Positions 5,717 through 25,513 of a stretch of 32,527 bases of DNA are shown here, in pieces (the stretch's first letter is position 1; every line of letters starts with the position of its first letter). The DNA comes from Oscillospiraceae bacterium (GTDB lineage: Bacteria > Bacillota > Clostridia > Oscillospirales > Oscillospiraceae): contig JAFXCL010000037.1 of NCBI GenBank assembly GCA_017521485.1, positions 1 through 32,527 of the forward strand, given 5' to 3'. The notes under the pieces are model-generated. The model ran no database searches and had not been told where the DNA came from. It worked only from the letters and a program-made list of their open reading frames with translations. The position numbers were made by a program, and so were the translations under genes.

Positions 5717-7525
5717 TTAGTCTTCGTCCAGTTTCAGAACTGCCATAAAGGCTTCGGAAGGAACTGCCACTGTGCCGAAGGTGCGCATCCGCTTCTTGCC
5801 TTCCTTCTGTTTTTCCAGCAGCTTTTTCTTACGGGTAATGTCGCCGCCGTAGCACTTGGCAAGCACATCCTTACGCAGCGCCTTAATGGTCTCACGGGCA
5901 ATGATCTTGCCGCCGATGGCAGCCTGCACCGGGATCTCAAACTGGGCGCGGGGAATGTTCTCCTTGAGCTTTTCGCAGATCTTTCTGGCTCTGGGATAGG
6001 CATTGTCTGCAAAAAGGATAAAGCTCAGGGCATCCACCACATCGCCGTTTAGAAGAATATCCAGCTTCACCAGCCGGCTGGGCCGGTAGCCGATCAGCTC
6101 ATAGTCCAAAGAGCCGTAGCCTCTGGTACGGGATTTCAGGGCATCGAAAAAGTCGTAAATGATTTCGTTGAGGGGCATTTCATAGTGCAGCTCCACCCGG
6201 TTGGCATCCAGATAGACCATATCCTTAAATTCGCCCCGGCGGGAGGTGGCAAGGTCCATAATGTTGCCCACATATTCCTGGGGTGCCATCAGGTTTACCT
6301 TTACAAAGGGCTCTTCTGCCAGCTGAATTTCCATGGGGTCGGGGTAATCCAGGGGGTTATCCACCATCAGCACTTCCCCGTTATTTTTCGTGACCCGGTA
6401 CACAACGTTGGGGGCGGTGGTGATCAGATCCAGATTATACTCCCGCTCCAGCCGCTCCTGAATGATCTCCATGTGCAGAAGTCCCAAAAAGCCGCACCGG
6501 AAGCCAAAACCCAGGGCAATGGAGCTTTCCAGCTCGTAGGTCATAGAAGCATCGTTGAGCTTCAGCTTTTCCAGCGCTTCTCGCAGATCCTGATACTTTG
6601 CGCCGTCTGCCGGATACACACCGGAAAACACCATAGGCTGTACCGGGCGGTAGCCGGGCAAGGGTTCGGCAGCGGGATTTTCCACAGTGGTAATGGTATC
6701 GCCCACCTGTGTATCTGCCACGGTCTTAATAGAAGCCGTAATATAGCCGACCTCTCCTGCGCCCAGAGCATCCGCAGGGATCAGCCCCGCAGGACTCATA
6801 GTGCCCACTTCCACTACTTTGTACACAGCGCCGGTAGCCATCATTTTAATGTCCTGACCTGCCCGGATCGTGCCTTCCTTGATCCGCACATAGACGATAA
6901 CGCCCCGGTAGGCATCGTACTGGCTGTCGAAGATCAGCGCCTGCAAAGGCGCATCCCGGTTGCCGGCAGGTGCGGGCACATCCCGGACGATCATTTCCAG
7001 TACAGAATGGATGTTAATGCCGTTTTTGGCAGAGATCTCCGGAGAATCCTCCGCAGGCAGACCGATAATATCCTCGATCTCCGCCTTTACTTCCGCCGGG
7101 CGGGCAGAGGGCAGGTCGATCTTATTGATAACCGGCAGCACTTCCAGTCCTGCATCGATGGCAAGATAGGTGTTTGCCAAAGTCTGGGCCTCCACGCCCT
7201 GAGAGGCATCCACCACCAAGATCGCGCCCTCGCAGGCAGCCAAAGAGCGGCTGACCTCATAGTTAAAGTCCACATGGCCGGGGGTGTCGATCAGGTTCAG
7301 GGCATAGGTTTCCCCATCATCGGCAGTGTAAGAAAGGGTGGCAGCAGTTGCCTTAATGGTAATACCCCGCTCCTTTTCCAGCTCCATAGAATCCAGAAGC
7401 TGCTCGGCACGGATGCGCTGATCGATGGCATCGCATTCCTCCAGCAGGCGGTCTGCCAGGGTAGACTTGCCGTGATCGATATGGGCGATGATGGAAAAAT
7501 TACGAATTTTCGAAAGCTCTGTCAT
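5717..7525 (-). CDS. lepA: Elongation factor 4 (LepA), ribosome back-translocase GTPase
   Basis: A 602-residue translation GTPase of normal length. The G1 loop AHIDHGKST is at 14-22, followed by RGIT (G2), DTPGH (G3) and NKID (G4). The C-terminal domain is the LepA-specific form: KLDILLNGD, the [30 protein letters not shown] block and a basic end. GAGGAG lies a few nt before the ATG. A consensus promoter is at 7579-7607. It is the first gene of lepA-hemW and is divergent from rpoD. Confidence 0.98.
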
Positions 7526-20345: not shown

Positions 20346-21248
20346 TTATCCTTCCATTTGATGAACTGCTGCCGCGCCGTCCGCAACCGCAGTCACAACC
20401 TGCCGCAAAACCTTTGTGCGCACATCGCCCACTGCATAAACCCCGGGGATGCTGGTTTTGGTGCTCTCATCGGCAACAATATAGCCCGCCTCGTCCAGCT
20501 TCAATTGACCGAACAGCTCCGTTGCCGGCTTTCTTCCGATGCTCACAAATACACCGTCGCAGGAAATTTCTTGCTTTTCCCCTGTGAGGAGATCTGTCAC
20601 ACGAACACCGGTTACCTTTTGTTCGTGCAAAATTTCTTCTGCGATACTGTTCCAGAAAAATTCCACATTGGTTGCGTTCTGTAGGGGCTCATGGTAAACC
20701 TTCGTTGCCCGCAGGGTATCCCGCCGGTGGACTAAGATCACCTTTTTCGCCACCCGGGACAGGAGCATTGCATCCGCCGCCGCGGAGTTGCCGCCGCCAA
20801 CTACCACCACAGTCTTGTCCTTATAGAACATTCCGTCGCAGGCGGCACAGTAGTGGACGCCCCGGCTTGCCATTTCCTTTTCACCGGGAATTCCCAACTG
20901 CCTGGGGTTTGCACCGGTGGCGATTACCACGGTCTTACCGTAAAATGTTCCCTCGGTAGTCTCCAGAGCCTTGGGCTCTGCCAAAAGATCGGCTTTTATG
21001 ACTTGGGCATATTCCGTCACTGCCCCAAAGCGCTCTGCCTGGGCTTGCATTTTCTCGCCCAGCTCAAAGCCGTCGACCCCCTCCGGGAAACCGGGGTAAT
21101 TGTCGATCTGGTGGGTCAGCGCCATCTGCCCACCGGCAGACAGCTGCTCCAGTACCACAGTGCGAAATCCTGCTCTGGCAGCATAAAGGGCAGCGGTATA
21201 ACCGCCCGGTCCTCCGCCGATGATCACAACATCATAAATCTTTTCCAT
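20346..21248 (-). CDS. trxB: Thioredoxin-disulfide reductase
   Basis: A 300-residue FAD/NADPH enzyme that regenerates reduced thioredoxin. G11-G-G-P-G-G binds FAD, the redox-active pair is C134-A-A-C137 followed by D-G, and VVGGGNSAAADA is the NADPH site. The CAAC variant of the common CATC centre is seen in related clostridial enzymes. It starts 3 nt after trxA and is clearly co-transcribed. The ferredoxin- or flavin-dependent relatives are less likely given the intact nucleotide motifs. Confidence 0.95.
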   Translation of the reverse strand: MEKIYDVVIIGGGPGGYTAALYAARAGFRTVVLEQLSAGGQMALTHQIDNYPGFPEGVDGFELGEKMQAQAERFGAVTEYAQVIKADLLAEPKALETTEGTFYGKTVVIATGANPRQLGIPGEKEMASRGVHYCAACDGMFYKDKTVVVVGGGNSAAADAMLLSRVAKKVILVHRRDTLRATKVYHEPLQNATNVEFFWNSIAEEILHEQKVTGVRVTDLLTGEKQEISCDGVFVSIGRKPATELFGQLKLDEAGYIVADESTKTSIPGVYAVGDVRTKVLRQVVTAVADGAAAVHQMEG

Positions 21249-21251
21249 AGC

Positions 21252-21569
21252 TTACAAAGAACCGGAAATAAAATCTTCGATGGCTGCCTTGGAGGCAGGC
21301 GCGACCACAGAATTGACCGCTTGTCCGTTCTTAAAAAACACCAAGGTGGGGATCACTTCAATGTTATATGCCTGTGCCAGACTGGGAACTTCATCGATAT
21401 TTACCTTTACCACTGCCACGTCATTGGCATAATCCTCGGCGATCCGGTCATAAGCCGGTCCGATCCGGCGGCAGTAGCCGCACCAAGGTGCCCAGAAGTC
21501 CACAAGAACCGGCTTATCCTGTGTCAAAAGTTCCTGAAACTGCTTTTCGTTAACATTCATTGCTGCCAT
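21252..21569 (-). CDS. trxA: Thioredoxin
   Basis: A 105-residue thiol carrier with the fold markers VLVDFWAPWCGYC, a cis-Pro loop (VIPT) and a final helix. The active site is W29-C30-G-Y-C33, that is CGYC instead of the standard CGPC, which should raise the redox potential. GGAG lies 9 nt before the ATG. It is the first gene of the trxA-trxB-srtB-hydrolase operon. Confidence 0.94.
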   Translation of the reverse strand: MAAMNVNEKQFQELLTQDKPVLVDFWAPWCGYCRRIGPAYDRIAEDYANDVAVVKVNIDEVPSLAQAYNIEVIPTLVFFKNGQAVNSVVAPASKAAIEDFISGSL

Positions 21570-21642
21570 AATATTGCACTCCTTTTTCTTTTTTTGTCAG
21601 TAGTGTTCCCGGAAAGAGGGATGTAACTCTCTTTGTGAAAAT

Positions 21643-21670
21643 ATTATAGCATAAATAAAAATTTTTTCAA
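21643..21670 (-). promoter_or_regulatory. Promoter of the trxA operon
   Basis: Minus strand: TTGAAA (21670-21665), 16-nt spacer, TATAAT (21648-21643). Confidence 0.75.
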
Positions 21671-21727
21671 TGAGGCAGCGCCGGACATTTTGCACATATC
21701 CAGTATAACTGCATCGACAAATGGTGC

Positions 21728-21756
21728 TTGAATTTTTGGTTTTGTTTTGATATAAT
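21728..21756 (+). promoter_or_regulatory. Promoter of tRNA-Gly
   Basis: TTGAAT (21728-21733), 17-nt spacer, TATAAT (21751-21756). The start would fall a few nt before the tRNA at 21768. Confidence 0.8.
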
Positions 21757-21767
21757 ACCCTCACAAT

Positions 21768-21841
21768 GCGGGATTGGTATATCGGTATTATGCGGCCTTC
21801 CCAAGGCTAAGAGGCGGGTTCGACTCCCGTATCCCGCTCCA
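21768..21841 (+). tRNA. tRNA-Gly (anticodon CCC)
   Basis: A 74-nt tRNA with encoded CCA. The acceptor stem GCGGGAT/ATCCCGC and a T arm with loop TTCGACT are intact, and the anticodon loop TTCCCAA gives CCC. The anticodon stem CGGCC/GGCTA has a C-A opposition and a G-T pair, and the D stem is short, so the molecule looks slightly degenerate. It is a single gene with its own promoter and terminator, next to the four-helix-bundle module. Confidence 0.93.
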
Positions 21842-21846
21842 GAAAA

Positions 21847-21884
21847 GAGCCCTCTTTTGTCTGCGGACAAAAGGGGGTTCTTTT
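21847..21884 (+). terminator. tRNA-Gly terminator
   Basis: A 15-bp stem with two wobble pairs (21847-21861/21866-21880), loop TGCG, then TTTT. It begins 5 nt after the tRNA. Confidence 0.85.
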
Positions 21885-21889
21885 CAACT

Positions 21890-22049
21890 AAATCCGTCCT
21901 TGCGGACGGGATAAATCCCACCTCAGCGGGATGAAATCACTTCGTGATGAAATCTGACTTCGTCGGGAGAAGGACGGATTTAATTTCATCTGCGTTAGCA
22001 GATTTCATCCGAGCAATGCCCGGATTTCATCGCGCTTGCGCGATTTCAT
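21890..22049. repeat. Seven-hairpin mirrored array, copy 2
   Basis: A 12-bp clamp AAATCCGTCCTT (21890-21901) / AAGGACGGATTT (21970-21981) encloses four hairpins: CCGTCC/GGACGG (21894-21899/21904-21909), ATCCC/GGGAT (21915-21919/21928-21932), ATCAC/GTGAT (21936-21940/21944-21948) and CTGAC/GTCGG near 21954-21966. Three follow: ATCTGC/GCAGAT (21988-21993/21998-22003), ATCCG/CGGAT (22007-22011/22021-22025) and ATCGCG/CGCGAT (22029-22034/22039-22044). Linkers are ATGAAA in the first half (21931, 21947) and the complement TTTCAT in the second (21984, 22003, 22025, 22044). It lies between the tRNA-Gly terminator and the promoter of the next gene. Confidence 0.78.
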
Positions 22050-22077
22050 TGAAAATCATTGAAGTTTGTGATATAAT
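22049..22077 (+). promoter_or_regulatory. Promoter of the four-helix-bundle/EEP gene pair
   Basis: TTGAAA (22049-22054), 17-nt spacer, TATAAT (22072-22077), beginning at the last linker of the hairpin array. Confidence 0.8.
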
Positions 22078-22098
22078 ATATTTAAAGAGGTGATTTCG

Positions 22099-22446
22099 AT
22101 GGCTGAAAATAAACTTGCGGATATGTCAACAGAATTTGCGATTCAAATCCTAAAACTGACAGAAACTATAAAAGGACATTATTCTCTGTCAAATCAGCTT
22201 GAACGAAGCGGAACGAGTATCGGTGCAAATATCCGTGAGGCGAAATATGCGCAAAGCCGTCCCGATTTTATCGCTAAATTACAAATCGCATTGAAAGAGT
22301 GCTATGAAACAGAATATTGGATCGAGATTGCCCAAAAAACGAGCATTATCTCTTGTGATGTTGCAAAGACTATGTTGCACGATTGCGGATCTATTCGCAG
22401 AATGCTCATCTCCTCTGTCAATACCGCAAAGGAGAATGGAAAATGA
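22099..22446 (+). CDS. Four-helix-bundle protein (S23/23S rRNA intervening-sequence, Avd-like family)
   Basis: A 115-residue, all-helical protein. The family core QLERSGTSIGANIREA (33-48) and the later block ALKECYETEYWIE (64-76) are clear. Relatives are found inside 23S rRNA intervening sequences and as accessory Avd proteins of diversity-generating retroelements, where a basic bundle binds nucleic acid. No reverse transcriptase or variable repeat is present here. The start at 22099 has GAGGTG 7 nt upstream; an upstream GTG (22090) would overlap it. Its stop overlaps the next start (ATGA, 22443-22446). AT-rich codon use differs from the neighbours and suggests transfer. Its position directly after a hairpin array is suggestive of RNA or DNA hairpin binding (inference). 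Confidence 0.88.
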   Translation: MAENKLADMSTEFAIQILKLTETIKGHYSLSNQLERSGTSIGANIREAKYAQSRPDFIAKLQIALKECYETEYWIEIAQKTSIISCDVAKTMLHDCGSIRRMLISSVNTAKENGK

Positions 22447-23120
22447 AGATTGTCAGTTGGAATTGTGGGGGTAAGTTTCGCGAAAAATTTCAAGCTATCC
22501 TCGATGTTGATGCAGATATATATGTAATTCAAGAATGTGAAAACCCTGTCGAAAGTAGATGTATCGCGTATAGAGAGTTCGCACACAATTATTTATGGAT
22601 TGGCGAAAATAAGAACAAGGGCTTGGGCGTTTTTGCTAAAAACGGAATACGCTTAACGGAAAATAATTGGAATAAATATTGTTTGCGTAATTTCCTTTCG
22701 GTACGCATTGATGATGTTTTTGATTTGGTTGCAGTATGGGCGTGCAAACCTTATATAGAAGAATATTACATATATCAAAGCATCAATATTTCTAACTATA
22801 CGAAGAAAACTGTTATTATTGGAGATTTTAACAGTAACGCAATTTGGGATAAAAAGCACGACACACGAACTCACAGTTCCGTTGTTCGCCAACTTAATGA
22901 AGTAGGATTGATTTCGGCATACCATCATATGAGCGGCGAGAAACAAGGCGAAGAAACAATACCGACATTCTATTTGTACAGACACACTAATAAGGGATAT
23001 CATATCGACCATTGCTTTACAGGCGAAAGCAATATTAAAGATTTTCAGATTTTACCCAAAAGTGATTGGTTAACTAAATCAGATCACATACCTATTTTGA
23101 TTGAAATCCAAAGCGAATAA
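22443..23120 (+). CDS. Endonuclease/exonuclease/phosphatase (EEP) superfamily protein
   Basis: A 225-residue metal-dependent phosphodiesterase or nuclease of the ExoIII/DNase I fold. The full set of catalytic motifs is present: N7 (SWNCGG), E31 (IQECE), D128-F-N130 (IIGDFNS), D189 (YHIDHCF) and S213-D214-H215. There is no signal peptide or DNA-repair extra domain, and the protein is shorter than typical ExoIII (about 250-270), so the substrate is uncertain (DNA, RNA or a small phosphoester). The ATG overlaps the stop of the four-helix-bundle gene by 4 nt, showing translational coupling. Codon use is AT-rich with many AAT, ATA, AAA and TAT codons, unlike flanking genes. Confidence 0.85.
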   Translation: MKIVSWNCGGKFREKFQAILDVDADIYVIQECENPVESRCIAYREFAHNYLWIGENKNKGLGVFAKNGIRLTENNWNKYCLRNFLSVRIDDVFDLVAVWACKPYIEEYYIYQSINISNYTKKTVIIGDFNSNAIWDKKHDTRTHSSVVRQLNEVGLISAYHHMSGEKQGEETIPTFYLYRHTNKGYHIDHCFTGESNIKDFQILPKSDWLTKSDHIPILIEIQSE

Positions 23121-23188
23121 ATGTAAGTAGTGTACTTTTACTTACTCTTACCTCAATTCTGCTCCGTTTGGTTACTCTTTGGCAGAAA

Positions 23189-23222
23189 ACAAGGGCGTGT
23201 TCCCTTTCGAACACGCCCTTGT
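23189..23222. terminator. Bidirectional terminator, EEP gene / catabolic operon
   Basis: A 13-bp stem ACAAGGGCGTGTT/AACACGCCCTTGT (23189-23201/23210-23222). On the minus strand it is followed by TTTTC. Confidence 0.88.
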
Positions 23223-23230
23223 AGATTTAT

Positions 23231-24403
23231 TTAGATACGAGCCACGCCGGTTGCGCGGGCTGCCTCGGCAACTGCCTTAGCAACCGCAGCACCCACTCTG
23301 GGGTCGAATGCCTTGGGAATGATGTATTCTTCGCTGAGCTCCTCGTCGGAGATCAGATTTGCAATAGCCATAGCCGCTGCCATCTTCATCTCCTCGTTGA
23401 TGTCGGAAGCACGCACATCGAAAGTACCGCGGAAGATACCGGGGAATGCCAGGACATTATTGACCTGGTTGGGGAAGTCGGAACGGCCGGTGGAGATCAC
23501 GCGAGCACCGCCTGCCTTTGCATCCTCCGGGAAGATCTCGGGAGTGGGGTTGGCACAAGCAAAGATGATGGCATCCTTGTTCATGGTCTTGACCATCTGG
23601 GTAGTCAGAGTGCCGGGAGCGGAAACGCCGATAAATACGTCAGCGCCAACGATCACGTCGGAAAGCTTTCCTGTCTTCTTCTCCAGGTTGGTGACCTGAG
23701 CCATTTCTTCCTTGATCCAGTTCAGGTTCTCACGGCCAGCGTAAATTGCGCCAGAACGGTCAGTCATAATCACATTCTTGAAGCCAGCGCTCAGCAGGAG
23801 CTTCACAATGGAAATGGCTGCAGCACCTGCGCCGGAGGTAACGATCTTAACCTCTTCCTTCTTCTTGCCCACAACCTTCAGAGCGTTTACGAGACCTGCC
23901 AGAGTAACGATGGCAGTGCCGTGCTGGTCATCGTGGAAGATGGGAATGTCGCACTTTTCCTTCAGCTTGCGCTCGATTTCGAAGCAGCGGGGAGCGGAGA
24001 TGTCCTCCAGGTTCACGCCGCCGAAAGAGCCGGAGATCATATAAACGGTGTTGACGATCTCGTCCACATCCTTACTCTTCACACACAAGGGGAATGCGTC
24101 CACATCGCCGAATGCCTTAAACAGAACGCACTTGCCTTCCATAACAGGCATACCGGCCTCAGGACCGATATCGCCCAGACCCAGAACGGCAGTACCGTCG
24201 GTAACGACGGCGCACAGGTTATGACGGCGGGTCAGGTCATAGGACTTGTTTACATCCTTGCTGATCTCCACACAGGGCTGTGCAACACCGGGGGTGTAAG
24301 CCAGAGACAAGTCATCCTTGGTAGCCACGGGAACGGTGGCTACAACCTCGATCTTACCCTTCCACTCGCCGTGCAGGCGAAGGGATTCCTTTGCGTAATC
24401 CAT
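23231..24403 (-). CDS. NAD(P)-dependent malic enzyme
   Basis: A 390-residue oxaloacetate-decarboxylating malate dehydrogenase making pyruvate and CO2. The bacterial short-form blocks are present: AYTPGVA (35-41), the [19 protein letters not shown] block, FHDDQHGTA for metal and substrate, the nucleotide fold SGAGAAAI, and [21 protein letters not shown]. The start at 24403 has GGAGG upstream; a TTG six codons earlier was rejected. It is the last gene of the seven-gene operon, 18 nt after the Ldh-type gene, where it would feed C4 acids to pyruvate or supply reductant. Confidence 0.95.
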
Positions 24404-24421
24404 AAATTTAAATCCTCCCAA

Positions 24422-25513
24422 TTAGTCCAGGTACTCGGGCAGGTAAGCACTTGCGCCGGTATACTCTGCGATCATCTTCATTTCGTCGTAGGTCTTGTCG
24501 TTGAGGTAAACGCCGTTTGCCAGAACCTTAGCTTCGGACTCTGCTTCCTTTTCGCCGTGGATGTAGATCCGGTCCTGACCCTCTGCCTTAGCGGAGTCAC
24601 GGACCTCCTGCAGGTACTTGCTCAGGTTTGCCTCGATCTCCTTCTTGTCGCCGAACATACCGTGATCCAGAGCGATGAAGCAGTGGGCGATGTTGGCGCG
24701 GCCGGGAGTCTTGTAGATGTAGTTGGAGGTAGTACCGCCGGACAGGATAGCTGTTGCGATCTCGCAGAGCATTGCAAAGCCGTAGCCCTTGTAGCCGGAG
24801 GTCATCTCACCGGAGCCGCCCAGAGGCAGGATGCCGCCGCCGGTCTTGGCAATGATGTTCTTCAGCACACGATCAGCCTCGTCACTGTCGTGGCCGTTCT
24901 CGTCCAGAGCCCAGCCAACGGGCAGACCGTTGCCGCGCTTGACGTAAACTTCCAGCTTGCCACGGGGCACAACGGTGGTCGCTGCGTCGAAGGAGTAGAT
25001 GGTAGGCTCAGCGGGCATAGCGAAAGCGATGGGGTTGGTGCCCAGCATAGCCTGCTTGCCGAAGGTGGGAACCATAATTGCCTCGGTATTTGTCATACAC
25101 ATACCGATCAGGCCCTGCTTAGCAGCCATCTTGGTGTAGTAGCCGGCGATGCCGTAGTGGTTGGAGTTACGGACAGTAACCATACCGAAGCCGGTTTTCT
25201 TAGCCTTGTCGATGGCCATCTGCATTGCATCCACACCCAGAGTCTGACCCATAGAGTCGTTACCCTCGATGACAGCAGACAGGGGGGTCTCAAATACGAC
25301 TTCAGGCTGTGCATCCAGCTTGACCAGGCCACTTGTGATCTCCTTGTGGTAGCGGATCAGGCGCTGTACGCCGTGGGACTCGATGCCGGACAGGTCAGCA
25401 GCCAGTAGAACGTCGGTGATCTGGTTGGCCTTCTCCTGGGAGAAGCCGTAGCCCTTGAACACTTCCTGGCAGAATTTTACCAGCTTTTCATAATTAACGT
25501 GATGATACTGCAT
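24422..25513 (-). CDS. Ldh2/malate-lactate-ureidoglycolate dehydrogenase family oxidoreductase
   Basis: A 363-residue NAD(P)H-dependent 2-hydroxyacid dehydrogenase of the fold shared by YlbC/AllD, ComC and Mdh-type enzymes, unrelated to classical LDH. Markers are SGIESHGVQRL (42-52), the catalytic RNSNHYGIAGYY histidine, LGTNPIAFA, and GYKGYGFAMLCEI near the C-terminus. Family members reduce or oxidise small alpha-keto or hydroxy acids such as malate, lactate, ureidoglycolate or 2,3-diketogulonate; the substrate here cannot be told. Neighbouring malic enzyme makes malate a reasonable guess. Confidence 0.88.
   Translation of the reverse strand: MQYHHVNYEKLVKFCQEVFKGYGFSQEKANQITDVLLAADLSGIESHGVQRLIRYHKEITSGLVKLDAQPEVVFETPLSAVIEGNDSMGQTLGVDAMQMAIDKAKKTGFGMVTVRNSNHYGIAGYYTKMAAKQGLIGMCMTNTEAIMVPTFGKQAMLGTNPIAFAMPAEPTIYSFDAATTVVPRGKLEVYVKRGNGLPVGWALDENGHDSDEADRVLKNIIAKTGGGILPLGGSGEMTSGYKGYGFAMLCEIATAILSGGTTSNYIYKTPGRANIAHCFIALDHGMFGDKKEIEANLSKYLQEVRDSAKAEGQDRIYIHGEKEAESEAKVLANGVYLNDKTYDEMKMIAEYTGASAYLPEYLD

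Follow-up and report, generated by a model that had tools for sequence, protein, structure and literature searches.

Integron cassettes combine small cargo genes with a conserved 3' sequence, are stacked in tandem and joined at a short core, and employ folded hairpins (attC). In REP/REPIN-RAYT systems, palindromic repeats are present in the genome and matching copies stand beside one protein gene. Avd, an accessory protein of diversity-generating retroelements, is a four-helix bundle. Intervening sequences coding for S23 proteins are known from 23S rRNA of Leptospira. The S23 insertion in 23S rRNA of Coxiella is treated as a selfish unit (PMC4990558), and the passages found in a further paper name the 23S IVP family only in a figure legend (PMC10910872). 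Gut-1 is listed for human gut only, most likely as a noncoding RNA unaffiliated with mRNAs (PMC2864571). Among the matches listed, no description of a unit composed of S23 gene, hairpin array and cargo gene was found in the open-access literature.

The window analysed here, the whole 32,527-nt stretch of contig JAFXCL010000037.1, carries one copy of a widespread unit (21842-23184), in which its own terminator is followed by a mirrored array, a promoter-like site, an S23 gene, an ATGA-coupled cargo gene and a conserved 3' sequence (3'CS). The features are as follows.

21768-21841, forward strand: tRNA-Gly (CCC), found by ARAGORN; the insertion target, its CCA at 21839-21841, with the unit starting directly after
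21842-21884, forward strand: T1, terminator-like hairpin of the unit, read in the sequence
21885-22051, forward strand: mirrored hairpin array, left-half tag GATGAAATC, right-half tag GATTTCATC (reverse complement); two head-to-head Gut-1 matches
21894-21909, forward strand: first array hairpin, CCGTCC-GGACGG, with covariation over homologous arrays
22049-22077, forward strand: sigma-70-like promoter TTGAAA-17-TATAAT with extended -10, a consensus match only
22099-22446, forward strand: S23 family protein (PF05635/TIGR02436), 115 aa, with AAGGAG and the ATGA overlap in the 3' end of its gene
22443-23120, forward strand: predicted EEP-fold phosphodiesterase, 225 aa, cargo of the window copy, with a PF03372 match
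23126-23184, forward strand: 3'CS, in which two direct repeats, not quite perfect, can be made out by eye; final bases CA
23185-23226, forward strand: terminator after the 3'CS, from a terminator scan, stem 23189-23222, common to a convergent gene

With integron cassettes the S23 unit shares cargo, 3'CS, tandem stacking, a short core join point and a role for hairpins. Unlike them, it has no integrase regularly beside it (no such family in at least two of 105 ORFs flanking 22 units), each unit brings promoter, S23 gene, array and terminator, and the target is a tRNA end with its terminator. Scattered palindromic repeats, matching ones beside one protein gene, recall REP/REPIN-RAYT; here, however, the linked gene codes for S23 and not for a Y1 transposase, some seven hairpins, interspersed with tag words, make up each array, and cargo is carried. 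The 23S rRNA intervening sequences employ the same protein family and are likewise small and selfish, associated with a gene for a stable RNA (PMC4990558), whereas the window unit lies behind tRNA-Gly, not inside rRNA, and possesses cargo and a mirrored array. Diversity-generating retroelements have a four-helix-bundle protein of similar family; in contrast to them, no reverse transcriptase family was seen here in at least two of the 105 flanking ORFs and no template/variable repeat was noted when repeats were sought around the window unit (20500-24500). One Gut-1 model (RF01706) covers one half of the array; an RNA published as probably noncoding and standalone (PMC2864571) is here half of a mirrored element beside an S23 gene.

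A preliminary description of this DNA had proposed that array, S23 gene and second gene form one unit adjoining a tRNA gene. This is borne out, as is its spread, and a mirrored array lies upstream of the S23 gene at 66 of 69 loci (window included). The unit is nevertheless larger than described, its left terminator and 3'CS having been missed. The differing base composition reported before is confirmed (GC 39.9% in the S23 gene, 35.5% in the EEP gene and 48.5% in the array, compared with 52.1% in the window), as is the ATGA overlap of the two reading frames at 22443-22446. The S23-like nature of the first product is backed by matches to PF05635 (6.5e-26; 91.1 bits, cut-off 33.8) and TIGR02436 (9.4e-29; 99.8 bits, cut-off 24). 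Its sequence relatives with solved structures are 2rld (E 2.5e-25) and 2gsc (3.5e-4), and the protein is predicted to be a member of the four-helix-bundle family. It is not basic (pI 7.7).

The near set comprises the best 80 of 535 S23 relatives (69-94% identity, some of them near duplicates), mostly from Clostridia of animal guts as judged by record titles. Together with the window they make 81 loci, 12 of which were omitted from the array count for having less than 250 nt upstream. An array was scored where some word of 7 bases occurs at least twice and its reverse complement does so too. Three loci fell short of this, L074 and L140 with a weaker array and L096 with a partial one; L080, with 96 nt upstream of S23, has no array by eye. 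Downstream of the S23 gene the count was 0 of 69, six of these controls being shorter than 320 nt. Arrays upstream of divergent S23 genes, collected from order and family, use different words, many of which are TGA followed by three further bases: a mirrored tag at p 0.025 precedes 63 of 120 distinct genes (66 of 124 in the raw count, four loci having been fetched twice), and 57 are without a clear tag, including two of the four S23 genes of the window genome.

tRNA genes are frequent upstream neighbours. With 16 of the 81 loci left aside (less than 330 nt upstream), 55 of the remaining 65 have a same-strand tRNA gene in the 700 nt that precede S23. These tRNAs represent 14 isotypes, and 45 of the 55 end 200-265 nt before S23; control intervals contained 0 of 74 (700 nt downstream) and 1 of 57 (1400-2100 nt upstream). 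In the divergent set, tRNA genes precede 36 of 60 tagged S23 genes, 5 of 31 untagged ones and 10 of 22 in between. The insertion point is visible at L083, whose flank aligns (77-81%) up to the tRNA-Gly end in three genomes, L289, L290 and L291. In all three the tRNA passes straight into a terminator (by eye). The terminator of L289 and L290 resembles one lying 1358 nt further on in L083, and one full and one array-only unit lie between the tRNA and that terminator; L291 has a different one. L289 and L290 lack the unit but are not pristine, as another small tRNA-end element stands behind their terminator. At a second site (L085 compared with L322), tRNA-Thr and tRNA-Tyr are directly followed by a terminator. 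Because unit-less relatives join tRNA to terminator, insertion is placed between CCA and terminator, the unit bringing a terminator of its own.

Terminators on both sides might also reflect a target-site duplication, as the identical ones flanking the units in L061 and L086 suggested. This was rejected in view of unlike terminators on the two sides in L083 and others, and T1 is therefore taken as part of the unit. T1-type terminators precede arrays behind different tRNAs, and in the window T1 occupies the place expected for the tRNA's own terminator. The terminator at 23185-23226 is taken as that of tRNA-Gly, displaced, by analogy with L083 and L289/L290. No relative close enough to reveal a unit-less site was found for the window's own locus, nor one sharing the flank of L095. 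Elsewhere in its genus, at L152 and L169, tRNA-Gly(CCC) is closely followed by arrays that bear a different tag; this may or may not be the window's site. Insertion at some non-tRNA terminators was seen as well (by eye).

The array is predicted to fold. Region 21880-22075 folds better than 200 of 200 dinucleotide shuffles (z -3.74 as RNA, -3.68 as DNA). Covariation was assessed on 49 window-type arrays, taken from the 56 of suitable length among 62 extracted (alignment A2). Local hairpins are paired in 89.1% of cells, compared with 82.9% after shuffling and 30-40% when slid. Changes on both sides affect 109 cells versus 27 shuffled. In an alternative long stem, the 5' arm of the first hairpin pairs with GGACGG at 21972-21977, midway along the array; 98.5% of its cells are paired and 41 changed on both sides versus 12 shuffled. 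Numbers of further pair types are within chance for the hairpins (34 versus 31.8; 95 of 500) and also for the long stem. As the first hairpin and the long central stem use the same bases, they are mutually exclusive alternatives.

The Gut-1 model matches each array half head to head with 46.0 and 44.9 bits, both below the gathering threshold of 50; other arrays in the same genome reach 91.4, and the 49 window-type arrays have the covarying stem structure of Gut-1. The window genome contains four S23 genes and 15 Gut-1 matches, of which five exceed the threshold. Across the family, 15 of 81 genomes gave a Gut-1 match, the filters used losing weak ones, and a search of 14 control genomes gave a below-cut-off match in one, E. 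coli.

The switch-like pair of exclusive, covarying structures and the array abutting a promoter-like site would suit a regulatory role, in which the array controls tRNA read-through or S23-cargo expression in cis through S23, dispersal being secondary. A promoter between array and genes had been claimed before, and a match to TTGAAA-17-TATAAT does start at the right edge of the array; the same kind of scan yielded 6 sites in the sequence scanned versus 3.7 expected. Because of this position, the array lies upstream of the promoter-like site, outside the predicted S23 message, which argues against regulation, as do several solo arrays with neither S23 nor cargo adjoining (by eye). We therefore hold the regulatory explanation to be improbable.

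The genes behind S23 are variable. In 46 of 81 loci the S23 end adjoins an ORF of 60 aa or more, 35 of these with an ATGA or GTGA overlap; by the rule used, 21 of the 81 have no cargo ORF, and in five S23 is cut short. Pfam families of 34 of the 46 near cargos include GNAT, NUDIX, methyltransferase, Metallophos, AAA_17, pyrophosphatase, DUF4279, DMP19, WapI-like, EEP and others. Near and divergent sets together give 115 cargo ORFs (112 distinct) in 89 clusters, ordinary neighbours being included where the S23 gene has no tag. Three clusters span S23 genes with differing six-base tags: GNAT with L237; L098, L221 and L276; L122 and L193. Known defence genes were considered as cargo and dismissed, as few among 34 were recognised by PADLOC (a mad2, a PDC-S07 and an IetA-like gene).

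The cargo of the window copy matches PF03372 (6.1e-6; 26.6 bits over a cut-off of 24.5), which supports its earlier assignment to the EEP fold; the catalytic motifs reported with it were read by eye only. The preliminary description went further and made the EEP enzyme a regular partner of S23, the latter binding the hairpins and directing the former to cut or trim these. One further instance of the pair exists, likewise with an array. The EEP protein (E 1e-15) is however present in only 2 of 394 order genomes, the window genome included, and most S23 loci are followed by other, unrelated cargo. S23-EEP pairs without arrays, named beforehand as a refuting outcome, were not seen at the two EEP loci of those 394 genomes, but S23-array pairs without EEP are far more numerous. 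The second EEP gene (L346, in a different bacterial family) is 82% identical to that of the window and again has ATGA and 3'CS, with a different S23 (57% identical), another tag (GTGAAGT versus GATGAAATC) and tRNA-Ser instead of tRNA-Gly. Cargo variety and the rarity of EEP led us to reject a functional pair; we give S23-guided EEP cleavage next to no credence, and the EEP enzyme is, judging from these comparisons, a passenger and not a partner of S23.

Exchange of cargo is best seen between L083 and L034 (array tag GTGAAAT). In blocks of 60 nt, cargo and 3'CS share 57-60 positions (95-100% DNA identity), whereas the S23 gene agrees at 28-43 of 60 in its first five blocks and at 48 in the block of its 3' end. 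Such near-identical cargo and 3'CS on S23 genes whose proteins are identical at 81 of 118 positions (69%) indicate that the cargo was exchanged. No docking signal is apparent in the S23 3' end, third positions there being no more conserved than elsewhere (58.8 versus 58.1%, 46 loci).

The 3'CS, about 59 nt long, is the same behind unlike cargos. Its profile gave 26 matches in 301 loci, 24 of them ending in CA; by eye, nearly all 26 are followed by a terminator-like hairpin (L062 has none) and about 14 by another array, and in L089 the 3'CS runs straight into an array. A second, longer 3' type (CATGGAGCAGCACCCCGGAAGATAGCGGT...) stands behind cargo in L097, L106, L110, L112 and L113, and neither type was seen in some loci. 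A tandem second cassette with a TGATAT-type tag and a broken S23 gene is located in L085 (about 5865-6540). In L052, an array is followed by another gene (by eye) without S23, then by 3'CS and the start of a same-type array.

Since the join between stacked units lies at the end of the 3'CS and not at a tRNA, the junctions speak against a retro-element, in which S23 would act like Avd and a reverse transcriptase supplied in trans would prime at the mature tRNA 3' end. That the tRNA junction is exactly the mature end fits this idea, as does the S23 family, which we take to resemble Avd. No reverse transcriptase family recurs among the 105 ORFs beside the units, in line with the absence noted before, and we consider a retro-element very unlikely.

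Tag and S23 gene appear to be inherited together. Of 190 S23 loci, 115 could be labelled by tag and 55 thinned rows were entered into a quick tree of S23 proteins, in which 30 of 52 inner branches are weak. It requires 14 tag changes, and none of 2000 shuffles went below 29 (mean 34.5). Without TGAAAT rows there are 13 changes versus at least 19 shuffled. The sequences can thus indicate co-inheritance of array tag and S23 clade, for which linkage alone would suffice. Arrays also occur alone, some of them at other tRNA genes, and for some solo tags no matching S23 was seen in the window genome (84% complete). In genome G072, where one S23 gene was found, a single solo array is matched 18 times (query included), in full or in part, at 79-100%, which looks like amplification in trans. 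An IMG/VR contig listed as viral (L308) has a GMP-synthase-like gene (by eye) beside an S23 unit with GTGAAAT arrays; phage carriage was rejected, this single contig being taken as host DNA.

Comparison of sequences shows the anatomy of the unit, its insertion point, exchange of cargo, tandem stacking and the co-inheritance of tag and S23. We propose that terminator, mirrored array, S23 gene with promoter, exchangeable cargo and 3'CS probably constitute a mobile cassette unit. The best reading is an integron-like cassette system lacking an integrase, with S23 presumably as array-specific factor. The unit is inserted at the tRNA CCA end, ahead of the tRNA's own terminator, and owing to its own terminator and promoter-like site the tRNA gene stays intact. 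The array may fold as DNA into a recognition structure bound by the matching S23, and an excised copy would join at the short CA/AAAA core, at the foot of a terminator hairpin, like integron attC. Cargo is swapped by recombination near the S23 3' end. The enzyme for cutting and joining would act in trans, not being encoded in the unit. Counting against the cassette reading are the non-basic S23, the 57 divergent S23 genes with no clear tag, the solo tags for which no matching S23 was seen, a co-inheritance that linkage by itself could produce, third positions at the S23 3' end that are no more conserved than others, the 21 loci with no cargo ORF and the lack of a recurrent recombinase.

No recombinase, transposase or reverse transcriptase family occurs in at least two of the 105 ORFs flanking 22 units (150-500 aa, 105 of 134 listed, families counted from two occurrences up). 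The lack of a recombinase, both within the unit and as a regular neighbour, solo arrays without S23 and the non-basic S23 are also consistent with a satellite, moved by the integrase of another element or by homologous recombination at tRNA loci, S23 only regulating or stabilising it. S23 remains constant while cargo changes, the tag tracks S23 clade, and insertion takes place behind tRNAs of 14 isotypes, as well as at some non-tRNA terminators; these observations make a mere satellite unlikely. An integrase-less cassette system could further present a new class of gene capture, in which S23/tag pairs set cassette identity, Gut-1 is half of the recognition array and S23 proteins serve recombination by recognising structure; this we put forward tentatively, at somewhat less than even confidence.

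With these units, S23, a large and unexplained protein family, and Gut-1, an orphan RNA family, gain a common context, and the units point to a route of gene exchange in gut Clostridia, providing promoter, coupling signal and terminator within about 1.3 kb. A precise join to the tRNA end without visible recombinase poses a testable question. If true, a role of S23 as structure-specific recombination factor would also explain S23 genes in rRNA insertions.

Apart from hairpin arrays, AT-rich mirrored repeats of TTCACTATTCACT type, with no clear hairpins, precede S23 in L193, L197, L198, L199, L172 and L176; in L193 and L199 they stand behind a tRNA. They are perhaps another class of the same design. 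A second tRNA-linked element was noticed by eye in L289, L290, L147, L150, L153, L157, L166 and L169. It lies behind the tRNA terminator and consists of an antisense tRNA 3' part, a GTCCGGTGGAC hairpin and a sense tRNA 3' end, followed in L289 and L290 by a clear second terminator.
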